Source of the DNA: a virus
Length of the DNA stretch: 54,732 bases
Reading direction: 5' to 3' (one strand)
IMG/VR virus record: IMGVR_UViG_3300010885_044183
Location: 1 to 54,732 of that record
Part shown: in pieces, positions 2,813-52,921 of the stretch
Layout of the letters: the number at the start of each line of letters is the position of its first letter
Numbering within the stretch: the first letter of the stretch is position 1
Made by a program: the position numbers and the translations under genes
The notes under the pieces: model-generated
The model's database searches: none
What the model saw: only the letters and a program-made list of their open reading frames with translations
What the model was told of the DNA's origin: nothing

Positions 2813-4078
2813 TTAGCCGAGCAGAATTGCTGCGTGACGCGGTGCCACCAGCTTCTGGCCCCACGCAATCGCCAACTCATACTTCACTTGGCGGTATTGC
2901 AGGTACATCGACACCTCGAACATCAGACCGCTGATCGGGTCGGTGATCGTCACGCGGTCTTCCGCGATGTCACGAGCAACGCCGTTGACAATCGGCAGGG
3001 CAGGCGCGCGGGTCGCCAATTGAATGGCTGAGCGCGAGAATGCCATGTTACGAGTGCCGCCGGTGCCGATCGTCATCGCAGTTGCAGCGGCTGGAATCGC
3101 CACACGCAGACCCGGCTCCGCCAGCACGATAGTGCCCGCAGCGGCGACACCCGTAGTCACCACATAGATGTTGGTGTCGCCGGCAAACGTCACATTATCG
3201 CCAGCAACGACAGTGCCAGTGCCAGTGATGAGCGGGATGCTTGTGACGCCGACCGCAAGAAGCGTGCCGCTGGTGGTGTAAGAAGCACCCGTGCCCTTCG
3301 TTACGGTTTTCACCGTTGAGGAGTTGCGGATGTCATAGCCTTCAACACGACCGAGGATACCTTCGCGGAGCAGCTGATCGGTGCCAGCCTCGTTCGCCTT
3401 GAACAGCAACGATTGCTTACCTCGGACGTTGGAGATGGCGGCAGAGCCCAGCACAAGTTGACGATCGCCAGTAGGTGCGCCGTTATCATCAAGGATACGC
3501 AGCGTGCCTGCGAAGTCCGAGAAGTCGCCAGAAGTGCCAAAGGGCGCAGTGCCTGCGGTGCCGTAGGCGCGTGAGCAGCCGGTGTACAGCGCCGACAAGT
3601 CCGTTTCGATTTCATTCACGGCAGCGCGGAGAGCTTGCGAGAACTGATCGCGAGCCACGTTGCTTTGCACGCCGCTTCCGGAGATGGACAGCATCTCCTC
3701 GCCAGTCCAACGGATCGGCCAGTAGCGCGACTTGCTGATAGTCATCGTGGTGTTGCCCATCACTTGGTCGCCATCAGAAGGCGGATTTGCGCCCGGAGTG
3801 ATATCAGCGCCAACGATCGCCGGAACGATGGGGATATTCACGGTTTGGTTCACCGCGACGCGCTCAACGTTGGAGTTGCGCGCGACTGCAGGGATGAAAC
3901 CGACCATCTCCCGTGAGACGACATCCAGCGCTTCATACATCGTCGGGATAAGGTTGGTCAGGGTGTTAGCGCCGAGAACCATCCCGACTCGCGCCATGTA
4001 GCGTTCAACATGGCATTTGGCGATAAACAGCGCTGCTAGGACGTGCAACTTAATGGACTGTGCAATGCGTGCAAACAT
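2813..4078 (-). CDS. Major capsid (coat) protein, P22 gp5-like
   Basis: The 421-residue product resembles the P22-type coat family. Its core opens with ANTLTNLIPTMYEALDVVSRE. It has the typical GRVEGYDI/RNSSTV region, then an inserted beta domain (around TGTVVAGDNVTFAGDT, like the P22 I-domain), and ends with YLQYRQVKYELAIAWG. The start at 4078 is chosen because AAGGAG lies seven bases upstream. A longer open frame continues to 4198 but without a comparable site. The chosen start adds about 32 residues (MFARIAQSIKLHVLAALF... ending RYMARVGMVLG) ahead of the family's usual N-terminus. The scaffold gene carries a similar extension. It assembles the procapsid with the scaffold encoded just upstream. 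Confidence 0.9.
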   Translation of the reverse strand: MFARIAQSIKLHVLAALFIAKCHVERYMARVGMVLGANTLTNLIPTMYEALDVVSREMVGFIPAVARNSNVERVAVNQTVNIPIVPAIVGADITPGANPPSDGDQVMGNTTMTISKSRYWPIRWTGEEMLSISGSGVQSNVARDQFSQALRAAVNEIETDLSALYTGCSRAYGTAGTAPFGTSGDFSDFAGTLRILDDNGAPTGDRQLVLGSAAISNVRGKQSLLFKANEAGTDQLLREGILGRVEGYDIRNSSTVKTVTKGTGASYTTSGTLLAVGVTSIPLITGTGTVVAGDNVTFAGDTNIYVVTTGVAAAGTIVLAEPGLRVAIPAAATAMTIGTGGTRNMAFSRSAIQLATRAPALPIVNGVARDIAEDRVTITDPISGLMFEVSMYLQYRQVKYELAIAWGQKLVAPRHAAILLG

Positions 4079-4251
4079 GAAAGGCTCCTTGATAGATGAA
4101 TGGGAAATTACAATTTCGAGCATCCCGCTCGCCGCACAAAGAGCCGTCACGTCCCGCAACAGCCCAAACAAACTGAAGGGTGATTCACCCAGAACCACCC
4201 TTGACTTACGCGCTTATACTCCCTCGAAAATCGGAAGTAAATAGATTTGAC
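4079..4251 (-). promoter_or_regulatory. Structured spacer upstream of the coat gene
   Basis: This 173-bp spacer between scaffold and coat holds three inverted repeats. They are GGGTGATTCACCC at 4178-4190; CGAGC-ATCCC-GCTCG at 4117-4131 (loop GGGAT on the message strand); and AAATTACAATTT at 4105-4116. The last two lie side by side just before the AAGGAG site. A similar hairpin with the same GGGAT loop precedes the scaffold gene. They may act as a translational operator or processing site. I see no good sigma-70 promoter here. Confidence 0.4.
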
Positions 4252-5145
4252 TCATCCGTCTGTAAGGGTTGTCTTTTCGCGCATTGCCGCTATTCTGGCA
4301 TTGGAGTCGAGAGCTTCGAATGCTGCACGCGTCATTGTCTTGCCCGAGCCGCCGCTGTTCTTCCCGCCGCCCGCGCCGCCGCCTGATGCTGATGCCGGGA
4401 ACCAGTGAGGTGATTTCTTCTTCATCTCTGTCACCCACTCGTCAACAGAGTATGGAGTTTTGCCGTCGGCGCCAAGCACCACAGTTTCCTCATCGTCCTC
4501 ACCTTCAAAGGAAACCGCATTGCCCTCATCGTCAACAGAGAAGATACCACGCGCCCGCAGCAGTGCGTCCTCCACCGCACCCGCATGCATACCTGCCTTT
4601 GCCGCCGCCGCGCGAACATGGTTGTCGAGCACACGCCCCATAAAAGCGGACGCCACCTCGAGAGCACCAGAGCCCTGCGCGCGCGCCTCGGCCAGCTGAG
4701 CGTCAACCGCCGACATTTTCTTCGCCATGCGCCGATCGATGACTTCATCGATTTTGCCAGCAGCGATGAGTGCTGCTTCGTCCTGGCCATCGAACTTAGC
4801 GAGCAGCTCGCGCGTCTTCACTGGGTCGATACCCTCGAACTGCTTGGCGAAATCAGCCAGCGCCCGCTCACCCGCCTTTTTCGCCTCAGCTGCTTCCCTG
4901 CGCGTGGCGACAACGGTATTCTTCAACCCCGTCACATCTTCGACATCCACCTTGCTTGGGTCGAGTTTGAATTTCTTGGTGGTGGCGTCTTGCGCATACC
5001 AGCCGCGCTGAAACTCCGGCACCGTTTCAATCGCATCCACCTCCAGCGAGATAGCCGACAACACCATCCCTGTGCGCGCCATGTATCGAAATGCCATACC
5101 ATTTAGTGCCGAACCAACTGCCAGTGCTAGTTTTTTAATACGCAT
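4252..5145 (-). CDS. Capsid scaffolding protein
   Basis: The 297-residue protein sits immediately before the coat gene. From residue 30 it has the layout of phage scaffolds: SLEVDAIETVPEFQRGWY, a Lys-rich segment, DVTGLKNTVVATRREA, a long Ala/Glu/Lys helix likely to form a coiled coil, and a Gly-rich linker (ASGGGAGGGKNSGG). A short C-terminal helix, TRAAFEALDSNARIAAM, would contact the coat. The chosen start has GAGAGG upstream. It adds about 28 residues that look like a basic plus hydrophobic leader and end RYMARTGMVLSA, very close to the coat leader. The scaffold is expected to direct procapsid assembly and then leave. Confidence 0.82.
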   Translation of the reverse strand: MRIKKLALAVGSALNGMAFRYMARTGMVLSAISLEVDAIETVPEFQRGWYAQDATTKKFKLDPSKVDVEDVTGLKNTVVATRREAAEAKKAGERALADFAKQFEGIDPVKTRELLAKFDGQDEAALIAAGKIDEVIDRRMAKKMSAVDAQLAEARAQGSGALEVASAFMGRVLDNHVRAAAAKAGMHAGAVEDALLRARGIFSVDDEGNAVSFEGEDDEETVVLGADGKTPYSVDEWVTEMKKKSPHWFPASASGGGAGGGKNSGGSGKTMTRAAFEALDSNARIAAMREKTTLTDG

Positions 5146-5213: not shown

Positions 5214-5441
5214 CTATCGAACTCTTTTGTAGCGGTCATTATGCTTCGGCTGCATGATCAACCGAGCATCATCCTTGCCGCGCCTATAGGCGATCCCATT
5301 GCCGTAAACCTTGCCGGAGAAATATCGCTTTGCGTTCACGGCAATGGTGAAGTGCCAATGCTTCTTGCCGAATGCCCGCGCATACCGGTGCTGCCTCCGA
5401 ACCTCAGCTGCAGCCTCTCTTGCCGCATCGCTCCATGCCAT
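5214..5441 (-). CDS. Small basic protein with MAWS N-terminal motif (copy 1)
   Basis: This 75-residue basic protein begins MAWSDAAREAAAEVRRQ. The same 16-residue pattern opens three proteins in the connector region (48917-49282, 49689-49925, 50752-51099), yet the remaining sequences are unrelated. The body is rich in Lys, Arg, His and aromatics (KHWHFTIAVNAKRYFSG, AYRRGKDDARLIM). A GAGG site lies eight bases upstream. The start codon overlaps the stop of the MuF gene (TAATG). Its position between minor head protein and scaffold suggests an internal or minor head protein. No known domain is visible. Confidence 0.65.
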   Translation of the reverse strand: MAWSDAAREAAAEVRRQHRYARAFGKKHWHFTIAVNAKRYFSGKVYGNGIAYRRGKDDARLIMQPKHNDRYKRVR

Positions 5442-6517
5442 TATGAATACCTCGCCTTGAGTTGTGCCACTGTTAATGGATTGCCGCGTAGATCGAGCAG
5501 CTGGTTGAGCGTTATCTTTTTGCTGCGCCAGAGTTCCGCCCGCCCCTTGCCCAATGTGGCGTTCTGATACGCCTCACCCTTGCGTTCTAGGAAGGCTGCG
5601 AACGTAGTGTCCGCCGCTATCTGCCCAGAGTTGGAGGCGCGCGTGCCAGTGGGGAATTCTGGCATATCCAGCCCCAGCTCCTTGAAGGTTTTCGTTATCG
5701 GCACAAGCACCGAGCGACAGCCCCAGTGACGCGGCACCCCATTCGGCGACCCACCATCGCTGACGAATGGCAGGTAAGAGCCCTTCAGCGGCTTCTCCGT
5801 GATCAAGTCCCACTCCTGATTCGAATAGCCGATGCAAATCTCAGTTGTGTGGGAGTCAAAGGTGCTAACCTGCCGCACGCCCTTGATGACGTCAGAGTTC
5901 TTGCGGAAGGTTTCCATACGCGCATCATTGGCGACCGACTGTATCGCCGCGTGGACTAATGAGCGCGCATTAGCGCGGGAAGCCTGCATGATGCCCTCAG
6001 TGCCCGCCTTCGGGGAGCCTAGCACGCGCCTCACAATCTGGTCATTGGTTTCGCCTGCCGTTGCCCCCAGCCGCACTGCGTTAGCGAATCGAAAGGCAGT
6101 GTCAGCGCTCTGGCGCGACCACCAATTGGCGGAAGGCGACCCGAAAACAAGCGTATTAGCCGATACGCGCTTGAGATAGGCCTCGGTTGGGAGATAGGCA
6201 CCAAGTTCCACCGAAAACACGCCTTGGATTGATTTATGCACATCCTTGGCGATATATTCAGCAGTTCCTAGAAGAGCTTTATCCGCCTCAGCCGCCATCC
6301 GCTCGTAATAATCATCGATTACCGAACTCGTTTGCCGCAAAAGCGTGCTCAGCCGCGATTTCCCCATGTCAGTCAGCGTGTCAGAACTGAGCTTTGACCG
6401 GAGCTCGCGCTCAAGCTGATCCAGCAGCCGTAGCACCCGGACGCGGGTGGACGCCTCGAGCCGGAGCAAGTCGAGCTGCCCGCTCAGGAACTCATCCAGC
6501 AGCGCCGCGTCGATCAT
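5441..6517 (-). CDS. MuF/SPP1 gp7-type minor head (head morphogenesis) protein
   Basis: This 358-residue protein has a long helical N-terminus of about 130 residues, followed by the MuF-like core. The core includes NAVRLGATAGETNDQIVRRVLG, ARANARSLVHAAIQSVANDAR and the conserved metal/cysteine-type block STFDSHTTEICIGY...PNGVPRHWGCRS. Family members are minor capsid proteins that bind the portal and are thought to enter the procapsid and help genome packaging or ejection. The frame overlaps its upstream neighbour by 4 bp. Gene order portal - metallopeptidase - MuF - scaffold - coat fits. Confidence 0.85.
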   Translation of the reverse strand: MIDAALLDEFLSGQLDLLRLEASTRVRVLRLLDQLERELRSKLSSDTLTDMGKSRLSTLLRQTSSVIDDYYERMAAEADKALLGTAEYIAKDVHKSIQGVFSVELGAYLPTEAYLKRVSANTLVFGSPSANWWSRQSADTAFRFANAVRLGATAGETNDQIVRRVLGSPKAGTEGIMQASRANARSLVHAAIQSVANDARMETFRKNSDVIKGVRQVSTFDSHTTEICIGYSNQEWDLITEKPLKGSYLPFVSDGGSPNGVPRHWGCRSVLVPITKTFKELGLDMPEFPTGTRASNSGQIAADTTFAAFLERKGEAYQNATLGKGRAELWRSKKITLNQLLDLRGNPLTVAQLKARYS

Positions 6518-6732
6518 TGGTATTTTGCCTTGTTGTGGTGGTGCGCGCGAGAGGCCACCTTTACCTTTGCCCCGATAGCGCCATAAGTGCGCAGTATGAC
6601 GTCGCCCGCCGCGCTGTATTTGGTGATCTCTGCATACGTGGCGCGCGCCTTGGGTGCTGGAGAACCATCCTCAGCGTGGAAGTCCACGAGCATGTAGGTT
6701 CCGTCAGCATCATCGATACGTTCAGTTGTCAT
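6514..6732 (-). CDS. Hypothetical protein, 72 aa
   Basis: The start MTTERIDDADGTY at 6732 is chosen over the longer frame because its ATG overlaps the TGA of the metallopeptidase gene (ATATGA). The product has alternating beta patterns (TYMLVDFHAE, VILRTYGAIGAKVKVA) and a His-rich basic tail (RAHHHNKAKYQ). I do not recognise a family. Its place in a tightly overlapping head operon suggests a small structural or assembly protein. Confidence 0.55.
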   Translation of the reverse strand: MTTERIDDADGTYMLVDFHAEDGSPAPKARATYAEITKYSAAGDVILRTYGAIGAKVKVASRAHHHNKAKYQ

Positions 6733-7820
6733 ATTTTCTTTAGCTCCGCATATTTGAGTTCCGCATTCGCCGCTTCTTGCCACGAAGGCGACAGCCGGTA
6801 TGCGCCACGATATTCTAGACCTCCCCTCACCATGTAGTGAGTGGTGATCGCCTCAGCATACGCCTCCGCAACGTTGGTTCTGCCGTATACGGTTGGCGGT
6901 GCGGCCATATTTGGGTCTTTGCTCCAAAGTGAGTACACTTTGTCGATCGGCGAGCCAGACCTCAGACTCGGGCTCCCATACGTCCGGGTGGCCATGTTGT
7001 GCGCCATTTCATGGATGTAGTTGGCGTGGTTCATCTTATCACCAACCGACAGCCCTGCCATGTAGAACACAACGTGACCGTCGCCGCCCGTTGCCGCACT
7101 GGTGAATGAGTGGCCGAGCTTGCGTGTGAGCACTTCGTCTTGGCGATTGGACTGGGTCGAGATGAAGACGCGCTGTGTGGCGTCAGTCAAATACGAGGGC
7201 AGATCACCACGCGCCATAGTGACGAACAGCCCCGCTGCCGAGCGCCGCGCCAGCCGATCACCCTTTGCATAATGCACCCTCTGCCGCTCGAGTGGGATCT
7301 CAATCATCAGTTCGCCGGAGCGCATGCCGTGACGCTGGTGAATGCCTTGGGTCAGGTTATGCTCACTATTCTTCAGCCTGTGCTCCGCGATCGACGCCAA
7401 TGTGGAGCGGTCAGTCTCTTTAGAGGCTCTGAGGTCTTCAATGAGCTTACGCGAGATTTCATGCGGGCTCGTCAGCACTTCGAGGTGGCTGCCCCGCTTC
7501 AGCAGTGGCTTCTGCTCTTCAGGCTTGAGCGCACCTTTCTTTTTCAGGTTGTTCAGCCGCCTCCACTCGTTGTATTGCGCCAGAGGCTTGGGGATACCGG
7601 CGAGCCGCGCCTCTTCCACCATTTCTTTCCAAGTGCGCTTGCGCCCATCCTTCGACAGCCGGTCGAACAGCGCCTCAGATTCTGGACCGACAGTGGTCGC
7701 GGCAAACTGCCCACTCGGGTCACCGCTCCCCGCCGCCACGCGCGGGTGCTTTGACTCGTCCCACGCCCGCCCCGCGCCTATTTTGCGCAGAGCCGCCTTG
7801 CCTGCTTTGCTGAATGTCAT
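6729..7820 (-). CDS. Head-region metallopeptidase-like protein (HExxH)
   Basis: The 363-residue protein contains YIHEMAHNMATR, with HEMAH at about residues 270-274. A glutamate-rich helix (NVAEAYAEAITTHY, residues 316-329) follows that could supply the third zinc ligand, as in gluzincin-type zincins. The N-terminus AWDESKHPRVAAG...GQFA matches the W-x-E-x-x-HPR-x-x-G-x-FA header often seen on phage polyvalent and MuF-linked proteins. The middle is Lys/Arg-rich. Being coupled to head genes, it could be an ejected effector or a prohead-processing protease. The zincin motif is seen; the role is inferred. Confidence 0.65.
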   Translation of the reverse strand: MTFSKAGKAALRKIGAGRAWDESKHPRVAAGSGDPSGQFAATTVGPESEALFDRLSKDGRKRTWKEMVEEARLAGIPKPLAQYNEWRRLNNLKKKGALKPEEQKPLLKRGSHLEVLTSPHEISRKLIEDLRASKETDRSTLASIAEHRLKNSEHNLTQGIHQRHGMRSGELMIEIPLERQRVHYAKGDRLARRSAAGLFVTMARGDLPSYLTDATQRVFISTQSNRQDEVLTRKLGHSFTSAATGGDGHVVFYMAGLSVGDKMNHANYIHEMAHNMATRTYGSPSLRSGSPIDKVYSLWSKDPNMAAPPTVYGRTNVAEAYAEAITTHYMVRGGLEYRGAYRLSPSWQEAANAELKYAELKKI

Positions 7821-8056: not shown

Positions 8057-8349
8057 CAGCCCGCTCCCTCTGTGGTGCGCATCAGGTCGTGATGGTCTCG
8101 CTGTTCTTGAGTCCAGCTGTCGCGCGGACCATCCAGCGCATCAACTATTCGCTCAAGCGTCCTGTGCTCACTTACGCACTTATCAGCTATGCTCCAAGTC
8201 AAAACCATCAGGATCACTATCGCCGCCGCGAGTTGCACAGGGCGCGCCTCGAGCACCAACCCCTGATTCGCCATCGCCCCTCCAAAAACAGCGAGCGCCG
8301 TGCGAACTGCACCCCTTATCGCGTTGCCTCTGACGGTTCTCCAGCTCAT
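8056..8349 (-). CDS. Hypothetical single-pass membrane protein, 97 aa
   Basis: A hydrophobic segment at about residues 39-55 (VQLAAAIVILMVLTWSI) is preceded by Arg-rich sequence and a small-residue helix (GAVRTALAVFGGAMAN). It is followed by a soluble charged tail (RTLERIVDALDGPRDSW). One transmembrane helix is the simplest model. The gene lies inside the head operon and overlaps the portal stop by 4 bp. I do not recognise the family. Confidence 0.5.
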   Translation of the reverse strand: MSWRTVRGNAIRGAVRTALAVFGGAMANQGLVLEARPVQLAAAIVILMVLTWSIADKCVSEHRTLERIVDALDGPRDSWTQEQRDHHDLMRTTEGAG

Positions 8350-9800
8350 TGCGCCGCCGCTTGGTTGCCAAGCCCTGCCGCATCAACCGTCGCTTGCTGC
8401 TCTAGCTGACGAGCGAACTGCTCATCCTGCTTGTCCTGGATCGCCCCCTGCTCTTCCTCAAGCGTGGTATCAGCTGCGATGATCTCGCCTTGGCGCAGGT
8501 TCTCGAACAGCGTCACATCACTAATCGCCCCTTGCTGCCACGCCATCACCAGCGCACTCAGCTCAGCCGGAGCCATACGTGCAGGATAGAAGTCGCGATT
8601 GAGCTCGAACTTTACTTTATCATCCGGCAACGCAGCGAACTGCGCCAGCCAACGCAGGGCTTGCGTCATGCCCAAGCTAATGGTCTGCGAGATAGAGCTG
8701 AGCATCGACTCCTCACCCTTGCGCCGTATGCTGGCGCTGTCCGCCGCCTCTACCGCCTTCTTCTGCGCCTCGAGCATACGCGCGCCAACAATCGCCATCA
8801 GTTGCTCCTCGCGCTGCAACTTGTTCTCCAGCGTCTTGAGTCCCGTGCCGCTGAACTCGATGAACTCAGCTTTGGCGTCAGGGTTCTTGGTGACGATGGC
8901 GCGTTCACTGCCCAAGTAGATGGGGTCGTTATTTTCACTCTGGAAACCCGCTAGGAACAGCGTAGGCAGCGCCGTGAAGTGGCAACCGTGGGCGTAGTCC
9001 GCGCTTGTGCGGTAGTGCGACAGATTCAGATCCACTAGGTCGATGAGCGGAGGCTCATCCACCTCTGAAGACGCATCATCGGTGCCGATGAACTGAAACG
9101 GAATGTAGTTGATTGGCGAAGAGTTGATGGTCGGGAATATGTCCGCCCCAATTTGAATGTCGGCATCATCCTTGCGCTCATAGAGCCGCTGACGATAGAC
9201 ATTATTCAGCAAATCGAGCACGCGCCACTGATCTACCGCCGTCACCTTGTATTCATCCTTGTCGTCCTTTTTATCCTCCACCTCGTGCAGCACCACCAGC
9301 GTCAATACCGTCTTGTTGTCGATGCGACCGGTGCGCCAGTTGATGATATTCTCCGCTGTGTAAAGCTGAAGCGTGGGACGCACGTTCTGAGCGATGGCAT
9401 CCGCCTGAGTAGCGCCCTTGGCCAGAGGCGGGCAGTCCACTAGCACGCCTACGCGTCCGACGGTCAGAGCATGCTCGCACACCTCTTGGGCGAACACCTG
9501 CAGTGGGTTGCCGGCAGAGTCTACATCCTCAAGCAGTTCAATCATCGCATCGGGAACTTCGACCACTGGTGGCTTCTGCAGCATCATGCCTTCTAGCCCA
9601 CTGATGGTGCGCCACGTAGCGTTGTAGAAGGTGGTGCGTATCTTGTACGATTTATAATCGGGATCAGTTTGCGCCTTCAGCTTGGGCAGATACGCCTCGC
9701 CGCCCGAGTGGACAGCGTCCTGACCGGCGGAGCAGTCGCGACAGCGCTTCCACTTGCTGCTGTATTTGCCATACTCTGAGTGCTGTGTGTTTACGGGCAT
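8346..9800 (-). CDS. Portal protein, DUF4055 family
   Basis: The 484-residue product has the DUF4055 pattern. Near the N-terminus are YKIRTTFYNATWRTISGLEGMM and VDSAGNPLQVFAQEVCEHALTVGRVGVLVD. In the core are NYIPFQFIG, HYRTSADYAHGCHFTALPTLFLAG and KAEFIEFSGTGLKTLENKL. The tail is Gln-rich. The protein forms the dodecameric DNA gate at the capsid vertex. The start at 9800 is preferred because GGAGG lies five bases upstream; the upstream in-frame starts would place the site inside the gene. It directly follows the terminase and a small lipoprotein gene. Confidence 0.85.
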   Translation of the reverse strand: MPVNTQHSEYGKYSSKWKRCRDCSAGQDAVHSGGEAYLPKLKAQTDPDYKSYKIRTTFYNATWRTISGLEGMMLQKPPVVEVPDAMIELLEDVDSAGNPLQVFAQEVCEHALTVGRVGVLVDCPPLAKGATQADAIAQNVRPTLQLYTAENIINWRTGRIDNKTVLTLVVLHEVEDKKDDKDEYKVTAVDQWRVLDLLNNVYRQRLYERKDDADIQIGADIFPTINSSPINYIPFQFIGTDDASSEVDEPPLIDLVDLNLSHYRTSADYAHGCHFTALPTLFLAGFQSENNDPIYLGSERAIVTKNPDAKAEFIEFSGTGLKTLENKLQREEQLMAIVGARMLEAQKKAVEAADSASIRRKGEESMLSSISQTISLGMTQALRWLAQFAALPDDKVKFELNRDFYPARMAPAELSALVMAWQQGAISDVTLFENLRQGEIIAADTTLEEEQGAIQDKQDEQFARQLEQQATVDAAGLGNQAAAQ

Positions 9801-10027
9801 CATTTCCTCCAGCCGTAGCGGTATTCCATGCATTGATCAAATTGGCTCTGCGCGAACTGTGAATTCATTATGTAGCTATTGGAGATATTCGATGACTGGA
9901 TGGCCAGCGTGGAGCACTCGAATTTGTCCCGCGCAAAGTCAGCCTCGCCCTTCGTGACGTGATAGTAGCGCATAGGTGCGCAAGCATCCAGGAACACCGC
10001 AAGAAACGCAATCAACAACCTCATCAC
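9800..10027 (-). CDS. Small lipoprotein
   Basis: The 75-residue protein starts MRLLIAFLAVFLDAC (after an extra possible GTG start), which is a short basic N-terminus, a hydrophobic stretch and a lipobox-like LDAC. A mature protein of about 60 residues, rich in Gln, Ser and aromatics, follows (FAQSQFDQCMEYRYGW). It would be a membrane-anchored lipoprotein. Its location between large terminase and portal is unusual for a lysis protein. A superinfection-exclusion role is possible but only inferred. It overlaps both neighbours by one to four bases. Confidence 0.55.
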   Translation of the reverse strand: MMRLLIAFLAVFLDACAPMRYYHVTKGEADFARDKFECSTLAIQSSNISNSYIMNSQFAQSQFDQCMEYRYGWRK

Positions 10028-11397
10028 ACACCTCCAACCTCTACACGCCTGACGAAATTATCAGCCGTCGGGAATTCATGCTCTACATAGTATCCAATTG
10101 CATCGGTCACGTGCGTTAGCTTTGGGGTGGCGTCCTTATCGATTTCACCGGAGCCGCCCTTCAGCAGCCGCACGCCCTCGAAGTCCAGCACGGTCTGAGG
10201 AGCCTTTGCCCCATCCACCATCAGCCGAATTATGCCTGCGCTGCTCTTGGTGCGTGAGTTCATAGCGTTGAGCCGCGCCCGCTCTTTGGGGTTCGCGGAT
10301 TTGACGTTGAAGCTCAGACGGTTGCCGAACTTGGGGCGCAAGTCACGCTCGATCAAGTCCCAGTCCGAGCCTTCCACCTTAGCAGTGCCACGCGAGCCGC
10401 CTGTAGCGTCGCCATAGCACACGACCCGCCCCTTGTGGCTCCCGTAGTCCTTAATGATGCGCTTGCAGACGGCCGGAGTGTTGCTATTGCGCGGTATATG
10501 CACCTCGCCGATGATGCCGGTTCCGGTGATTGGGTGGTCTAGCAGCTTCACGCCGTTCGCAGCCAGCTCATACTGACCAGGCAGCACCTGCTCTTGGATG
10601 TAGGCGCACACTCCGGGCTCAACGTTGAAGTCGAAGCACAAGTTCAGCGTTGCATTTTCGTCATACACCAGCGGTGCGGTATTATCCGCCTCAAGGAAAG
10701 AGTAGTATGCACGCCCCTCGAAGTTGACGAAGCTGGCCTCATACTCCTGCGCAAACGTGAGCTCATCCAAGTCCTGCATAGCAGCCGCAATCTCAGAGGC
10801 TGGCAGAATGTCACGCGACGCCCAGCTATAGCTGCCCCAGTCACTAGCTGCCCCAGACGCCTTCATGCGCGCCTTGGCGGAGCGGTCGAGCTGATAATAG
10901 TGGTTCCGCCCCTCTGGCACGCCTATCAAGTCGCACCAGCCGAGCCGGTCAGAAAGAGAGGGGCGCACGTTCTCTGGCCAAGCACTCTCTTTGGTGTCGG
11001 CTATTTCATCGATGATGCCGCCGTCCCACGGTTGACCCTCCATACGCTGGGGCTTGTCGAGACCGATCACCCATAGCTGAGCGCCATTCAGATACTGGAT
11101 CATCAGGTCTGATTCAGAGGGCGTTTGCGCTATAAGGTGGCGCGGAGACAGAGCCTTCAAGTCATTCCAGAAAATACGCTTTGCTTGGTCGCGCGTGGGT
11201 GCTGCGCAGAAGAAACGCGGAGTCCACTTAGTGGCCGCAGCTAGAGCACGGCGCACAACCTTGCGCTTGGCGAGTTCAGTTTTGCCACTCCGACGCCCCG
11301 CTGGCACGGTGTTGAAGCGGTGTGGAGAGTTGATGTAGGCGTGCTGCGTAGGGTGGAAGCGCAGCTTTGTCCAGCGTGGGGGCAGCTCTATGCTCAC
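10024..11397 (-). CDS. terL: Terminase large subunit
   Basis: The 457-residue ATPase-nuclease motor protein shows a Walker A motif PAGRRSGKTE at residues 32-41 and a Walker B GGIIDEIAD with DE at 130-131. Its nuclease half has acidic residues in LCFDFNVEPG (about residue 256) and VCYGDATG (about residue 330). It pumps DNA through the portal and cuts concatemers. The start is GTG overlapping the TGA of the small subunit (GTGA). The order TerS - TerL - portal is standard. Confidence 0.93.
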   Translation of the reverse strand: MSIELPPRWTKLRFHPTQHAYINSPHRFNTVPAGRRSGKTELAKRKVVRRALAAATKWTPRFFCAAPTRDQAKRIFWNDLKALSPRHLIAQTPSESDLMIQYLNGAQLWVIGLDKPQRMEGQPWDGGIIDEIADTKESAWPENVRPSLSDRLGWCDLIGVPEGRNHYYQLDRSAKARMKASGAASDWGSYSWASRDILPASEIAAAMQDLDELTFAQEYEASFVNFEGRAYYSFLEADNTAPLVYDENATLNLCFDFNVEPGVCAYIQEQVLPGQYELAANGVKLLDHPITGTGIIGEVHIPRNSNTPAVCKRIIKDYGSHKGRVVCYGDATGGSRGTAKVEGSDWDLIERDLRPKFGNRLSFNVKSANPKERARLNAMNSRTKSSAGIIRLMVDGAKAPQTVLDFEGVRLLKGGSGEIDKDATPKLTHVTDAIGYYVEHEFPTADNFVRRVEVGGV

Positions 11398-11978
11398 TCA
11401 GGCTTCTCCACGTCATCAGTCATAGCTGCAAGAGTTTCACGTATAACGCGCGCTGCATCATCAGGCTGCGCCCCCACTGGAGCGAGCTGTGAGTCGGGAC
11501 GGTAGTCTTGCGGACGCCGGTTCTTCAACCAGAATATGGCAGAGGTGGCATCGGGAGGATACTGCTTTGTCACTTGCACGCGCTCCACGTACGTGGAACC
11601 GCCCTTGCCCTCTGAAAGTATGACGATTTCTTCTGATGGGTGACTGTAGCCTTTTGCGCGGTGTATGAGTGAGCGCTCTACTTCATCATCTGTACGCGCC
11701 TTGCCGCGCTTTACGGAGCTTTGAAAGCTGGGGTGAGCCCTCATCCATGCTTCAACAGTAGAGACGTCAACGCCAAACATATCAGCAAGCCCCGGACTGT
11801 CCGCATTGATGATGCACGCCTGCTCCGCAATATGATCGAACCCAATGTGGTAGCTGGTTGGTCTGCCGTGCTTGCGCTCCTCTCTGTTCTCAGCGATCAC
11901 CTCGGCTGCACCTTTGACTTTGGCGTTGACCCCTTTTCGGTCTTTCATTCGCGTCGAATCAAGCTTTCTTCGTGCCAC
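11394..11978 (-). CDS. terS: Terminase small subunit
   Basis: This 194-residue protein has a basic N-terminus and a helix-turn-helix-like block (SPGLADMFGVDVSTVEAWMRAHPSF). The family C-terminal pattern follows: RAKGYSHPSEEIV, then KQYPPDATSAIFWLKNRRPQDYR. It recognises the packaging site and delivers DNA to TerL. It starts with GTG preceded by AAGGGAG. A likely promoter lies 32-60 bp upstream, consistent with this being the first late gene. Confidence 0.88.
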   Translation of the reverse strand: MARRKLDSTRMKDRKGVNAKVKGAAEVIAENREERKHGRPTSYHIGFDHIAEQACIINADSPGLADMFGVDVSTVEAWMRAHPSFQSSVKRGKARTDDEVERSLIHRAKGYSHPSEEIVILSEGKGGSTYVERVQVTKQYPPDATSAIFWLKNRRPQDYRPDSQLAPVGAQPDDAARVIRETLAAMTDDVEKPE

Positions 11979-47672: not shown

Positions 47673-48884
47673 TTAAAGTTGCGAATCTTGCACGGTCATT
47701 ATCGTTGAATCCCAGTTCAGAGCCGCGCCGCCCGCATCGTTGTATTCCGCAACCCATGTATACGTGCGGGAGATACCGCGACCGGGATCATCTGGCGCGT
47801 CACCCGTCAGCGTTATTTTGCCGAAAGTAAATGCCATGAATGCGGAGTTGTTTGTGGTGTCCTCCGCAACCGCAACGATCAACGAGATGCGTGTTTGGGC
47901 GTCGAACAGAGCTTGCAGCGTCACGGAGTCGAAGAAGGCTGTGAAGGTGCCGGACACCTTGGTGCTGTTACGAGATATGTCCGGTGCGCTATTGCTTGCG
48001 ATCACAGGACCGGTATGCTGCCCGCCGCTGTCGATCGTAAAATTCACGCCAGTGGCGATGGCTTGCGCAGCCCCATTCACATACAGCTTGCCGTTGACTG
48101 CGGTCATCTCGCGGAAGGTCGGTTCCGTTGGCGTCGTCAGCACGCGAGCGCCGGTGGCTGTGCGCGAGATCTGAAGGAAGTCCGCCTTGAATGTAGCGTT
48201 GCCGGTTGCAGGCAGAGCCACATCGATCTTGTTGATGCGCGCATCGGCGAAGACCTCTGAGCGAGACAGGTCGGAATACCACTCTTCGATCGTGAAGTAG
48301 TCGTTCGTCTGGCTGGAGACCGGAGCAATGGACTTTTTGCCGAACACAGTCACCGTCGATGAGGCGATCGGACCCTCAGCCACAGCCGTGGTGCCATTCA
48401 GCGTAACAAAGGTGATCACCGTTGCGGTGACCGCAGTGGCCAGGAAGTTGTTGTCGCGATTCACCGCGTTGACGTAGGTGCCTGCCGTTATCCGGAACAC
48501 ATCGCCAACCTTGATGCCACCAGCAAGGAAGTCACCCGCTGAGCGCGTGAGGGTGTATGGTCCTGTGCCTGCGATCGTGAGCGACAGAGTTGTGAGAGCT
48601 GTGGTGGCGGTGAAGTCTTTGCGCAAAATACCCGCGAACAGCAGAGCGAAGGTTTCATTCGAGAGCAAAGAGTCAACCATACCGGTCGGACGCTTCATCC
48701 CCAACCCGACGCCGGTCGACTGCTGATGCGCGGTGATGACGTTAGATTCGAAGGTATCACGCGGTGAGCTGAATACAGAAGAATTCCGCGTCAGCACTGA
48801 GCCACCGGAGCCGCTCGCTGCCGCGCCGAGAGCGGTTTGCTTTTTGATGCTGGTGATCTTATTTATGGTATTTGCAATCGTCAT
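47673..48884 (-). CDS. Major tail tube protein
   Basis: The 403-residue protein starts MTIANTINKITSIKKQTALG and contains SPRDTFESNVITAHQQSTGVG, DYFTIEEWYSDLSRSEVFADARINKID and TFTAFFDSVTLQALFDAQTRISLI. It ends GISRTYTWVAEYND, the pattern of a large siphovirus tail tube protein family. It carries inserted beta domains (about residues 100-190). Hexameric rings of it form the tail tube around the tape measure. AGGAGC precedes the start. It should be one of the most highly expressed late genes. Confidence 0.85.
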   Translation of the reverse strand: MTIANTINKITSIKKQTALGAAASGSGGSVLTRNSSVFSSPRDTFESNVITAHQQSTGVGLGMKRPTGMVDSLLSNETFALLFAGILRKDFTATTALTTLSLTIAGTGPYTLTRSAGDFLAGGIKVGDVFRITAGTYVNAVNRDNNFLATAVTATVITFVTLNGTTAVAEGPIASSTVTVFGKKSIAPVSSQTNDYFTIEEWYSDLSRSEVFADARINKIDVALPATGNATFKADFLQISRTATGARVLTTPTEPTFREMTAVNGKLYVNGAAQAIATGVNFTIDSGGQHTGPVIASNSAPDISRNSTKVSGTFTAFFDSVTLQALFDAQTRISLIVAVAEDTTNNSAFMAFTFGKITLTGDAPDDPGRGISRTYTWVAEYNDAGGAALNWDSTIMTVQDSQL

Positions 48885-48916: not shown

Positions 48917-49282
48917 TCAGTATCTCTTGCGGTCATACTTTGGCTTGTATCCCCGCTCGTACATCCGCGACGGGTATCTCCTTACGTGCTCTTCCATCGA
49001 TTCCTGCGTGCTGCGCCTCACTCTCCCATTCAAGTCTAGAGTGGATCCCTTCGCAGCCTTGCGATAATTATTGAGCGACGCCGTATTCTGCAGGTCAGAG
49101 AGGGCGCTGCTTTGCCCACTTCTGATTCTGTGGCGAAGACTCTTCATGGCTGCTGCCGCATGAAGCCGAGTCATAACGCGATCGCGCCCGCCCAATGGAT
49201 TCCCTACATACACGTATGCGCCACCTGAACGCTTCCGCCTCGCATCAACCGCCGCTGCTCTTGCTGCGTCTGACCATGCCAT
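48917..49282 (-). CDS. Small basic protein with MAWS N-terminal motif (copy 2)
   Basis: This 121-residue basic protein begins MAWSDAARAAAVDARRKR, the motif shared with 5214-5441, 49689-49925 and 50752-51099. The remainder has RVMTRLHAAAAMKSLRHRIRSG and a very basic end (YERGYKPKYDRKRY). The site AGGAGC lies upstream. It sits between tail terminator and tail tube genes. It could be a minor virion protein or a DNA-binding passenger. No known domain is visible. Confidence 0.6.
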   Translation of the reverse strand: MAWSDAARAAAVDARRKRSGGAYVYVGNPLGGRDRVMTRLHAAAAMKSLRHRIRSGQSSALSDLQNTASLNNYRKAAKGSTLDLNGRVRRSTQESMEEHVRRYPSRMYERGYKPKYDRKRY

Positions 49283-49284
49283 GA

Positions 49285-49689
49285 TTATGCTCCTATATTT
49301 GAAAAGTAATTGATGCGGACTGGCACGTGCCAGCGGTCGATGTCTTGCTGGCCGGACATTATGTAAGGCTCTCGGTCGATCATCAGCGTCACGCCCGACG
49401 CCGTCAGCGACAAGCCGCGAGGGAAGTGCTCAGCCAACAGCTTCGCCCGCGCTTCTGCTGCGCCCGCCCCTGCGTTCGGTGGATAGAACAGCGACACTTG
49501 GAATACGCCTGTCAGCCGGTGGAAGCTCCCGAACACAGGATTCTCCGGCTGCGCCCGAAGCAAGTAGCACCGCTGGAACGGGGTGCCCGCCACAGGCGTG
49601 TAGGCTGCATTCTCGTGTGCAGTAGCCATTGCCGGCGACAGCAGAGCGAGACGCGTCTCAAGTGCAGCGCGGATAGCGGATTCGCTCAT
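49285..49689 (-). CDS. Tail terminator/completion protein, DUF4128 family
   Basis: The 134-residue protein fits the DUF4128 pattern: IRAALETRLALLSPAMATAHEN, FQRCYLLRAQPENPVFGS, GVFQVSLFYPPNAGAGAAEARAKLLAEHF and DRWHVPVRINYFS. Members resemble lambda gpU-like tail terminators. It would cap the tail tube for joining to the head. The start overlaps the upstream stop (TAATG). Confidence 0.82.
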   Translation of the reverse strand: MSESAIRAALETRLALLSPAMATAHENAAYTPVAGTPFQRCYLLRAQPENPVFGSFHRLTGVFQVSLFYPPNAGAGAAEARAKLLAEHFPRGLSLTASGVTLMIDREPYIMSGQQDIDRWHVPVRINYFSNIGA

Positions 49690-49925
49690 TACGCAAAATT
49701 CCCGAACTTATTGAAGCTGCCGAAACCCTTGCGCCCATACTTTGGAGTCTGCCTCGGAATCACGACTTTGCCGTAATGGTCTATGTACCCATGCTTCTGC
49801 TTGATCGCCTTCAGCGTCTGCTGAAATGCATTCTGCGCCCGTTCCGGAGGATTCACACCCCATTTGGCGTAATGCGCTTTTCTTGCGATTGCCGCCGCCG
49901 CTCTTGCCGCCTCAGACCACGCCAT
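49689..49925 (-). CDS. Small basic protein with MAWS N-terminal motif (copy 3)
   Basis: This 78-residue protein begins MAWSEAARAAAAIARKAHYAKWG. It continues with AFQQTLKAIKQKHGYIDHYGK and a Gly/Phe/Lys-rich end (YGRKGFGSFNKFGNFA). GGAGG lies six bases before the ATG. Its start region overlaps the HK97-gp10-like gene by 14 bp. The function is unknown; the shared N-terminus links it to the three other MAWS proteins. Confidence 0.6.
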   Translation of the reverse strand: MAWSEAARAAAAIARKAHYAKWGVNPPERAQNAFQQTLKAIKQKHGYIDHYGKVVIPRQTPKYGRKGFGSFNKFGNFA

Positions 49926-50379
49926 TTTTGACCTCCGTCGCCGCTTTGTCTATGATCGGCTGAAACTCAGCCACCGTTATCGCCACCATTCCGGCTGGTG
50001 CCTGTTTGCTCCACCCAGTCTCCAAGCGGATCGCATAGGGCAGATTGTTGACGAGGTAATGCTTCGTCGCCATTCGAGCCGCACCCGCCACGCCCGCCGC
50101 GAGACGCTCCGTGGATGCCCGCCCCGTTGCATCGATGTCGGGCAGCTCTCCCGAGGGCAGTCCTGCGCCCGCTAAGTTGCCGTATTGCCAGTTGGCGCGG
50201 AACCGCCCGCCCACATAGCCTTTGGGCGGAGGGCGTTTCCAGAGAGTGCCATCACCCACCGGCGACCGCTCCACGAGGCGCGTGCCGAAATCCAGTATCA
50301 CCTTGCGCACCACGGCGTCCGAATTCGCGATGCCGCCATTGATCCATTTGCGCATGTCGAGCGAGAAGCGAGAGCTCAT
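49912..50379 (-). CDS. HK97 gp10-like tail component
   Basis: The 155-residue protein has the family layout: VRKVILDFGTRLVERSPVGDGTLWKRPPPKGYVGGRFRANWQYG read in parts, LVNNLPYAIRLETGWSKQAPAGMVAITVAEF, and a C-terminal helix. The conserved SPVxTGxxRANW-type block and NxxPYAxxLExGxSxQAP-type block are both present. It acts at the head-tail joint or as a tail completion factor. Confidence 0.85.
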   Translation of the reverse strand: MSSRFSLDMRKWINGGIANSDAVVRKVILDFGTRLVERSPVGDGTLWKRPPPKGYVGGRFRANWQYGNLAGAGLPSGELPDIDATGRASTERLAAGVAGAARMATKHYLVNNLPYAIRLETGWSKQAPAGMVAITVAEFQPIIDKAATEVKNGVV

Positions 50380-50750
50380 CAGACGCCCCTCAGTTGCAAG
50401 TCATACAGGACAGGCGTGCCCGCTGGCGCGACCTTCACCACCCGCTTCACGGAATACGTCACAGTTCCGACCACCACATCATCACTCGTAGTCGGCGCAA
50501 CTGCTACGGATGGCGACATCAGACACCGCTGATCACCCTGCTGCACAAGGGTGCCATCAATATCGCGCTGCGCATAGTCCAACAGCACCGCCGCCGCTGC
50601 GTAAGTCGCCGGAGTGTCCGGAGTGCTGATGCCAGTTGCGGGGTCGTAAGTTGGCGCGCTGGTGGATGGGCGCGAGAGCGTGACTGTTCGCCCGAACTGC
50701 CCGAGCAGTCGGTTCGCAGTGGCAGCGGTCTTGGGGTAGTCGAATGCCAT
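50379..50750 (-). CDS. Head closure/stopper-type connector protein
   Basis: This 123-residue beta-rich protein has GQFGRTVTLSRPSTSAP, ATYAAAAVLLDYAQRDIDGTLVQQGDQRCLMSP and VVVGTVTYSVKRVVKVAPAGTPVLYDLQLR. The segment IDGTLVQQGD is characteristic of phage stopper (head-tail joining) proteins that plug the connector after packaging. Gene order adaptor - MAWS protein - stopper - gp10-like - terminator fits. AAGGGGCGC precedes the ATG. Confidence 0.75.
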   Translation of the reverse strand: MAFDYPKTAATANRLLGQFGRTVTLSRPSTSAPTYDPATGISTPDTPATYAAAAVLLDYAQRDIDGTLVQQGDQRCLMSPSVAVAPTTSDDVVVGTVTYSVKRVVKVAPAGTPVLYDLQLRGV

Positions 50751-50751
50751 C

Positions 50752-51099
50752 TCAGCGCCCCTTCACCTTGAATCTTTGTATTGCATCCATGCGCGCGCGG
50801 CTATCCAGGACGCGGAAGCCTTTGCCTCCAACTTTGACAGACGCCCCATAATCATTCATATGATATGGCGATTTCTTGAGTTTGATGTGAGTAGCGGCAA
50901 CCTTTGCCCCAAGGAAAGGGTGCGCCCCTTTATGCCCCATCCCATGCTTGCCCTTCACCATCTCCCAGCCGGAGACCTGCCCAAAGCGCATTCCAGAAAT
51001 TGGTCGATTGAGCTTGACCAGATCTCCAATTCCCGCTCCGAGTCTGCGCTGCCGCCGCACCTCAACTGCCGCCGCCCGCGCTGCATCAGACCAAGCCAT
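50752..51099 (-). CDS. Small basic protein with MAWS N-terminal motif (copy 4)
   Basis: The 115-residue protein begins MAWSDAARAAAVEVRRQRRLG. It then has RPISGMRFGQVSGWEMVKGKHGMGHKGAHPFLG and GGKGFRVLDSRARMDAIQRF. It is strongly basic and His/Gly-rich. Between adaptor and stopper genes, it could be a minor virion protein. The N-terminal 16 residues match three other proteins in the genome, but codon choices differ between copies, so selection acts on the peptide. Confidence 0.6.
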   Translation of the reverse strand: MAWSDAARAAAVEVRRQRRLGAGIGDLVKLNRPISGMRFGQVSGWEMVKGKHGMGHKGAHPFLGAKVAATHIKLKKSPYHMNDYGASVKVGGKGFRVLDSRARMDAIQRFKVKGR

Positions 51100-51101
51100 A
51101 A

Positions 51102-51611
51102 TTATCCCCTCATCACTCTTGCGTTAAATGCACCACCAGTAAGATACCGCCGCAGCAACGCATCCTGTGCGCGGTATTGCGTGACCTGCGAAGCATTTGA
51201 ATCATACGTCACGGAAATCGGACCCACCGACTCGGACAGCTTTGCGCGCTCGACATCCGGCGAGAGATCGCCCGCCGCCGCCTTCAGCGCATACTGGATG
51301 CAAGCTGCCACTACCTCGGCTGGAACAGTCGTTATCGCCACCACAGAGCCGTAGGGATCATCCTCGACCTGAACGCCTTGCCTAGGCCAGTCTAGCGTCT
51401 GCGTAGACGACACCCGGAACCCCTTCCAGCGCCCGCGATACGTCTGCTGCATGTAATCGGTTGCGCGCCGCAGCGCCTCTTCCATCTCAGCATTAGACAT
51501 GGTCGCCCAGCGCTCATCCCCGCGCAACGCGATATAGGTGGTGGCATCGGCGACACTCGCATAACTCTCAGCGCCCGCCACGTTTGCCCCAGTCTCAACT
51601 ATCAAGCTCAT
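51102..51611 (-). CDS. Head-tail adaptor protein, DnaT-like (gp6-type) fold
   Basis: The protein (169 aa) has the pattern ETGANVAGAESYASVADATTYIALRGDERWATM read in parts and EEALRRATDYMQQTYRGRWKG. LDWPRQGV, VPAEVVAACIQYALKAAAGDLSPD and a C-terminal helix follow. This is the family annotated as DnaT-like ssDNA-binding in Pfam, though in phages it is the portal adaptor. It attaches the tail connector to the portal. GGGAGAGACG precedes the ATG. Confidence 0.8.
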   Translation of the reverse strand: MSLIVETGANVAGAESYASVADATTYIALRGDERWATMSNAEMEEALRRATDYMQQTYRGRWKGFRVSSTQTLDWPRQGVQVEDDPYGSVVAITTVPAEVVAACIQYALKAAAGDLSPDVERAKLSESVGPISVTYDSNASQVTQYRAQDALLRRYLTGGAFNARVMRG

Positions 51612-51622
51612 CGTCTCTCCCT

Positions 51623-52921
51623 CTATGCCAGCGGATAAGTGCGACCCACTCCGGCCAATGAATAAGTGCGATCCACTCCGGCCAATGAATGAGTCACATC
51701 AATCCCCGCCAGCGGATACTGATCATGCGCAGCCGCCGCACCGGCAACCTGCGACTTCCACACGAACGAATATTGCCTATTCTCGTTCTGCGGAAGCGTA
51801 GCAAAGAATGCTGCGATCGGGGTGATGGCTGCTGGCGGCGCAACAGCAACCTGCGACTTCCACACGACCGAATATTGTCGGTTTTCGTTCTGCGGAAGCG
51901 TAGCAAAGAATGCTGCGATCGGGGTGATGGCTGCTGGCGGCGCTTTAAATACCTGTGCGGCAATCTGCGCAGGATCAGCCTGCGGGGAACCTTTAACAAA
52001 GGGTATTACAGGTGGTGTCTGCCCCGCCGTTTGCGACTTCCATACGACCGAATATTGTCGGTTCTCGTTCTGCGGCGATGCCTGCGTAAATGGCGGGACT
52101 GCACTGGCAACCGTTGGCGGCGTGGAAGCGGGGGGGAAAATTGCAGCAGGCAGAATATCGCTGTAAATCTGCTGTAGCCCGATAACAGGCGGCGGAACCC
52201 ACTGAGCCGATACCGCAGGGGCGGATTGCGATGCCTTGATAACCTGCGCCGCTATTTGCGATGTATCGTCCTGCGATACGCTTCGTGTGAACGAGATTAC
52301 AGGCGGTTTCTGTCCCGCAGTTTGCGACTCCCAAATAGTAGAGTATTGCCGGTTCTCATCCTGCGGAAGCGTGGCGAAAAACGCAGCAATCGGATTTGGA
52401 ACTATTGCTGTCGGCGCTAATGGTTCAAATATCTGCGCGCCAATCTGCGTAGGGTCGCTCTGGGGCGGTGCTAACGTAGTAGCCGGGACTGCGCCCTGAC
52501 CGATAATTACCGGCTCAAATAAAGCGGGTTTTACATCATCGTATGTTTGCTGCTGAACCGAGATAAACGGCGGGACTGCTGTTACAGCAGCGGGCGGCGC
52601 AACCTGCGCCTGAAATATCGTGCTTTTTAAACCTTCAGCAGTCTGGATGGATGCAGCGTGGGTGCCATGCCTGTATTCCTGTGCATTAGCGCCGGGAACC
52701 TGCCCACTGACTAAGGAAGCTAAGAAAAAGCCGATACCCGCTATCAGATTGTAATTAGCAATCTGCGGGCTTGAAGAAAGCGTATTAACAAACGAACCCA
52801 ACGGCCCAGAATTATCTGGAACCAATAGTTTCTGTGTTACAAACTTGGTTTGACGATTGGGCGCAATGCCTCCCGGCACTCCTGCGCCGCGCCCAATTCC
52901 CCGATTTTGACCTCGTGCCAC
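51623..52921 (-). CDS. Tandem-repeat virion protein (PPxI/ENRQYS repeats)
   Basis: The 432-residue Pro/Ala/Gln-rich protein has an N-terminal unique region with one hydrophobic helix (LIAGIGFFLASLVSG). It is followed by repeats built around ENRQYSxVWKSQxAGQxPPVI and ATLPQNENRQYS. The last two full units are 34 residues (102 bp at DNA level) and nearly identical. The C-terminus has three short units of the type LAGVxRTYSLAG. It starts with GTG overlapping the upstream TAG. Similar repeat-rich proteins lie between coat and connector genes in other phages; the role is unknown. Confidence 0.65.
   Translation of the reverse strand: MARGQNRGIGRGAGVPGGIAPNRQTKFVTQKLLVPDNSGPLGSFVNTLSSSPQIANYNLIAGIGFFLASLVSGQVPGANAQEYRHGTHAASIQTAEGLKSTIFQAQVAPPAAVTAVPPFISVQQQTYDDVKPALFEPVIIGQGAVPATTLAPPQSDPTQIGAQIFEPLAPTAIVPNPIAAFFATLPQDENRQYSTIWESQTAGQKPPVISFTRSVSQDDTSQIAAQVIKASQSAPAVSAQWVPPPVIGLQQIYSDILPAAIFPPASTPPTVASAVPPFTQASPQNENRQYSVVWKSQTAGQTPPVIPFVKGSPQADPAQIAAQVFKAPPAAITPIAAFFATLPQNENRQYSVVWKSQVAVAPPAAITPIAAFFATLPQNENRQYSFVWKSQVAGAAAAHDQYPLAGIDVTHSLAGVDRTYSLAGVGRTYPLA
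51746..51949. repeat. Two tandem 102-bp units inside the repeat-protein gene
   Basis: 51746-51847 and 51848-51949 are near-identical direct repeats; differences include ACGAACG/ACGACCG and TTGCCTA/TTGTCGG. More divergent units continue to about 52380. The high similarity suggests recent duplication, so copy number may vary between isolates. Confidence 0.75.

Follow-up and report, generated by a model that had tools for sequence, protein, structure and literature searches.

A short N-terminal peptide shared by dissimilar basic proteins encoded among phage head genes, a candidate tag for cargo of the phage head

The window (the whole 54,732-nt stretch of viral DNA analysed here) carries a head and connector operon in which four small genes are lodged in gaps between the structural genes (Table 1). 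Their ORFs lie on the minus strand where an earlier note on this DNA had placed four proteins with a common MAWS[D/E]AAR start, and the interleaving with adaptor, stopper, terminator and head genes that it described is borne out by profile matches of the neighbors: Ad1, Hc1, Neck1, tail terminator, tail tube, MuF-type protein and scaffold. The head genes at the left end of the window run on into the connector genes at its right end, so the ends seem to join, which suggests a circular or circularly permuted record.

Table 1. Small genes with the shared N-terminal peptide (tag) and head/connector genes of the window.
Feature	Position	Strand	Remarks
Tagged cargo gene 1	50752..51099	-	115 aa, pI 11.4; tag 51052-51099; in the Ad1/Hc1 gap
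Tagged cargo gene 2	49689..49925	-	78 aa, pI 10.5; tag 49878-49925; in the Neck1/tail terminator gap
Tagged cargo gene 3	48917..49282	-	121 aa, pI 11.1; tag 49235-49282; in the tail terminator/tail tube gap
Tagged cargo gene 4	5214..5441	-	75 aa, pI 11.0; tag 5394-5441; in the MuF/scaffold gap
Head-tail adaptor Ad1	51102..51611	-	phrog_477
Head closure Hc1	50379..50750	-	phrog_161
Tail completion/Neck1	49912..50379	-	phrog_169
Tail terminator	49285..49689	-	phrog_179, PF13554
Tail tube protein	47673..48884	-	PF18906
MuF-type head morphogenesis protein	5441..6517	-	phrog_241; candidate docking partner
Head scaffolding protein	4252..5145	-	phrog_206; candidate docking partner
Major head protein	2813..4198	-	phrog_283
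Portal protein	8346..9833	-	phrog_145; candidate docking partner
Terminase large subunit (TerL)	10024..11397	-	in relatives flanked by tagged genes
TerS	11394-11978		named from PHROGs/Pfam

All four ORFs have an ATG start and a Shine-Dalgarno-like sequence, and they begin alike, with MAWS[DE]AARxAAxxxARR/K. Genes 1 to 4 read MAWSDAARAAAVEVRR, MAWSEAARAAAAIARK, MAWSDAARAAAVDARR and MAWSDAAREAAAEVRR over this stretch, which is only 16 residues long. Against the pattern first proposed, MAWSDAARAAAxxxRR, gene 2 has K in place of the last R. A scan of the whole window found the motif in none of its remaining frames. The four proteins are basic, as had been noticed, and past the tag they diverge fully: the remainders, compared with one another by BLAST, gave nothing significant. 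No Pfam domain was matched in any of the four, and PHROGs and Pfam give no recognized function for any of the four cargoes. The cargo of gene 1 has a relative in another phage contig (L033:3681-4079), and two of the window cargoes, used as full-length queries, returned no convincing relatives. A by-eye grouping had placed the gene 3 product in a recurrent “LRxIR” cargo family, and an HMM rejected it. None of the tagged ORFs of the window has a MuF match in Pfam or PHROGs; MuF is the separate gene adjoining gene 4.

The peptide rather than the DNA is what is conserved, as the earlier reading held. Serine in the four tags is encoded by AGC, TCA, TCT and TCT, and identical tag residues use the same codon in 36% of comparisons, against 29% expected from codon usage. 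The corresponding rates are 0.32 against 0.34 expected in a related phage (G003) and 0.37 to 0.46 against 0.25 to 0.39 in five other phages. Synonymous codons are thus mixed about as codon usage predicts, which indicates that the peptide was kept while the DNA drifted.

Pattern scans of IMG/VR, combined with a scoring matrix, turned up dozens more cases with the same extension past the residues searched. This extension, together with the absence of any match to a reversed control pattern in those IMG/VR records, argues that the tag match is not due to chance. About one-third of the raw MAW..AAR matches were false (antisense capsid frames and a terminase frame) and were discarded by requiring downstream residues. 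The resulting collection spans about 41 contigs and comprises 108 unique proteins with the tag at the N terminus, with the consensus [A]-W-[ST]-[DE]-x-A-R-x-A-[AS]-x-x-x-R-[RK]. Within W-[ST]-[DE]-x-A-R, no member departs from the W, A, and R, and the later A and R are conserved in more than 97%. The proteins are small (median length, 107 aa) and basic (median pI, 11.7; pI above 9 in 92%). In a comparison with untagged neighbors of equal size, the median pI was 11.8 for tagged proteins versus 6.3 (Mann-Whitney p ~8e-18). Past the tag, the cargoes of the 108 members fall into more than 80 BLAST clusters, singletons for the most part. In several phages there are between four and eleven copies, and one (L127) has five tagged genes in tandem upstream of TerL. 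Neither a family model in Pfam, PHROGs, or NCBIfam nor a description in the searchable open literature was found for the tag, which is in line with the suggestion that the system is undescribed; apparently it is.

Outside viruses the tag is exceedingly rare. In 257 Gb of genome sequence from bacteria and archaea, its pattern occurred in only 8 stretches, and the true members among those 8 belong to two metagenome-assembled contig sets with phage head genes. Betaproteobacteria contig JAHFRL010000015.1 contains a phage with tagged genes. A position-free version of the pattern matched 1 of 369 genomes of one bacterial class, there on a phage contig. The tag is essentially phage specific, and the random occurrence in unrelated contexts that the earlier note named as counterevidence was not seen; where neighbors could be identified, the tagged genes are in head operons. 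Among cultured phages, a tblastn search with a 22-mer returned nothing, a match to the consensus being too short to pass the E-value limit, and the tag was absent from seven isolate regions.

Genomic context ties the tagged genes to head assembly. Homologues of the window terminase, portal, MuF, scaffold, Ad1, Hc1, Neck1, terminator, or tube adjoin 63 of the 108 members, the other 45 lying at loci without a recognizable window-type neighbor, and all tagged genes with identifiable neighbors are within the terminase-to-tail-tube operon. In five contigs of 30 to 72 kb, every tagged gene is inside this segment. We discarded a random-placement value for this, as it entered seven genes for one contig (G008) in which six were seen, the segment had been delimited after the data were viewed, and tandem genes are not independent. 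The same gap between head genes holds differing cargo in different phages, and conversely a cargo family of about 13 members is spread over several slots. Caulobacter phage DMCA (PQ480021) has an equal gene order without tagged genes, which implies that the tagged genes are accessory and the slots dispensable. Tags also occur in phages built from other parts. In one 101-kb phage (L132), the scaffold, major head protein, Neck1, and tail sheath come from families other than those of the window. It has seven tagged genes in near-tandem; tandem copies lie upstream of its scaffold gene, and a tagged gene directly follows Neck1. Another phage (L020) has five between the portal and a head protease/morphogenesis gene. 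The tag is found in unrelated siphovirus- and myovirus-like phages. Taken together, this gene context strongly suggests that the tagged proteins associate with the head.

Some cargoes of related phages resemble enzymes. For one ART cargo, AlphaFold2 gave a pLDDT of 35 from the single sequence and a usable core from a six-sequence alignment, in which the tag and ART region of a portal fusion (L145, described below) were aligned with five free cargoes (pTM 0.50). The top structural matches of this model are ART-fold proteins, led by Tpt1/KptA (Z 9.2 over 88 residues), so that by the predicted structure L145 and the aligned free cargoes have the ART fold; matches of the model to cholera- and pertussis-type chains reflect this common fold only. 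Another tagged ART (L179) matches PF01129 above the Pfam cut-off. Two free cargoes match ParB-like phrog_1033, and two others share a GVEVKT motif, which we read by eye as suggestive of a PD-(D/E)XK nuclease.

The tag is not confined to N termini. A scan without a start-codon requirement recovered 56 distinct internal copies. Among 42 proteins with such copies, 8 carry DUF2213 (a head maturation protease in PHROGs), 2 are portals, and 1 is a Mu-like protease. The single ORF of L145 joins a portal (4.7e-93), a tag, an ART-like domain, and Acb1 (anti-CBASS; 1.3e-30). Six loci have at least three tags in one reading frame (L149, L177, L144, L155, L157, and L106). Elsewhere (L112), the tag in each of two neighboring genes is preceded by a common prefix of 40 residues, which ends in ..GTP[LI]NE, and this phage encodes a head maturation protease.

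Several minor observations accompany these loci. Within L145:8-2314, the portal protein carries its Acb1 anti-CBASS domain at the C terminus, and tag-less portal-Acb1-like fusions are found in the isolates phiPSA1 and Synechococcus phage Yong-M2-251. The 974-aa ORF at L112:9817-12738 has terminase, HNH endonuclease, and portal family matches in series and may represent a fusion or an insertion of intein type. The contig behind L106 and L135 (3300032001_000052) is a phage contig with planctomycete-like-looking genes (LKLEPLEERNLLS start) and encodes proteins of 303 and 815 aa that bear tags. A MuF assignment made by eye around the L179 and L150 tags was not confirmed by PF04233 or a MuF-protein HMM.

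These results bear on the proposal that a common docking or targeting helix delivers different cargo into the virion. An N-terminal module, its restriction to phage head operons, its internal reuse, and its fusions to effector enzymes are all upheld, and the tag of the L145 model is predicted to be helical (residues 16 to 38). We dropped the idea of a docking helix with one conserved face, as the conservation moment of the tag positions was not significant (p ~0.46).

The closest functional parallel is the T4 CTS, about 10 N-terminal residues that lead to encapsidation of nearly any protein (PMC7697877). Like the tag, the CTS is a short N-terminal peptide that several proteins of a single phage, otherwise dissimilar, have in common (internal proteins and Alt), including an ADP-ribosyltransferase. 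The head protease cuts the CTS off once packaging is done, and a role in packaging, predicted here for the tag, is proven for the CTS. The tag, for its part, spans unrelated phages, occurs in internal copies as well, and shows no consistent cleavage context, a propeptide-like prefix being seen in L112-type copies only. Our best reading, by analogy, is that the two are functionally alike and otherwise unrelated. The predicted mechanism would be a variant of known head-cargo loading, with a sequence that fits no family found.

Three other systems invite comparison. ART, ParB-like, and 2H effectors encoded in portal-terminase phages have been predicted to be packaged and injected (PMC5512222, Iyer et al. 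2017). The cargoes found in relatives of the window phage recall these polyvalent proteins in having ART, ParB-like, and 2H/Acb1-type domains alongside portal-terminase head genes, and the tagged genes of the window are likewise encoded among such genes. Most tagged proteins differ from polyvalent proteins in being single small modules with one tag each: at least two domains per polypeptide, a polyvalent trait, are seen in relatives such as L145 but not in the four proteins of the window. MuF polymorphic toxins (Jamet et al. 2017, PMC5576092) also join a constant head-associated N terminus to a variable C-terminal effector and are encoded beside the portal gene; the constant part of the tagged proteins is instead a 16-residue helix, without a MuF domain, and there are many copies per phage. 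The Dar/Ddr system of P1 places several different anti-defense proteins in the head for coinjection, although through an internal platform of DarA and Hdf, and the part of that account available to us describes no short common tag (PMC12810830). The comparison with DarA, Hdf, and Ddr is drawn from the literature.

We consider it probable that the tag opens an effector module that travels in the phage head and is delivered along with the DNA. Given the T4 CTS precedent and the predicted head-borne effectors of the ART, ParB, and 2H types, a head-cargo tag is the simplest account of the observations. A free-standing tagged protein would be a late product of the head/connector operon and would be held in the procapsid by its tag, most likely through the portal, MuF, or scaffold protein. 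The basic cargo could then lie alongside the packaged DNA, enter the next host together with it, and act there as an effector early on. Other phages may have this module inside head polypeptides such as the portal or head maturation protease, and some would string several tag-cargo units together as beads. Because tags linked to a portal or protease reach the head regardless, they could serve in ejection or processing rather than in packaging, and we regard such a role as a serious alternative.

The processing idea has a stronger form, in which the tag is a boundary element: a head protease would cut just ahead of the W and free cargo from polyproteins (portal, protease, or bead-like), with free proteins retaining the tag as their mature N terminus. 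Tags do stand at module junctions, several per polypeptide, and the propeptide-like prefix of the two tandem L112 genes, in a phage with its own head maturation protease, speaks for this form. It fits poorly with the weak conservation ahead of internal tags (at most 1.06 bits), when the 13 residues past the putative cut are strongly conserved, and with the 116 copies that sit at a start methionine already; PHROGs, moreover, recognized no protease among those head genes of the window that were scanned. We judge it rather unlikely. If the tag were a helix that binds nucleic acid, similar to the NUMOD-type modules of homing endonucleases or to histone-like tails, and the proteins acted on intracellular DNA rather than as virion cargo, this would agree with the strongly basic, in some cases histone-like, cargoes and with the three to four arginines per tag. 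That the tag is fused to portal and head protease, and that genes with identifiable neighbors are located in head operons, argues against such a role, and a search of 102 members at E<=0.1 gave no convincing NUMOD or DNA-binding Pfam match among the families listed (25 of 27), although a motif of this length is poorly captured by profiles. We hold this account to be quite improbable.

The shared N terminus might instead be a functionless by-product of recent gene duplication or a recombination hook. Arrays with as many as seven genes in tandem and a higher tag identity within one phage (0.65) than between phages (0.55) are the traces that duplication would leave. Yet in most phages the peptide has been kept while synonymous change has come close to saturation, and W, A, and R are invariant across unrelated phages, which leaves this explanation very little credence.

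If the head-cargo reading is extended across lineages, the tag could represent a kind of cargo code, in which one short helix, recognized by a conserved head component, loads and delivers exchangeable effectors. These would include ADP-ribosyltransferases, nuclease-like proteins, and anti-defense proteins, made as separate tagged proteins or as beads of head polypeptides. We put this extension forward tentatively, with somewhat less than even confidence. If the tag does mark virion cargo, it would offer a handle for injected phage effectors that are mostly invisible to homology, a use suggested by the portal-tag-ART-Acb1 protein, and a gene start resembling MAWSDAAR would flag a candidate early host-takeover or anti-defense protein. 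Capsid loading would then have a second signal next to that of T4, and a widely distributed one, and there would be a testable way of packaging chosen proteins into phage heads.

Two further proteins of the window, both encoded on the minus strand, deserve mention. The one at 51623-52921 (432 aa) contains repeats of the type PQNENRQYSVVWKSQ. The other, at 6729-7820 (363 aa), has a HEMAH zinc-peptidase motif and the N-terminal segment AWDESKHPRVAAGSGDPSGQFA; similar HPRD..G[RK][FW] N termini adjoin tagged genes in four other loci (L088, L053, L087, and L010), and this N terminus is perhaps a second head-associated tag.
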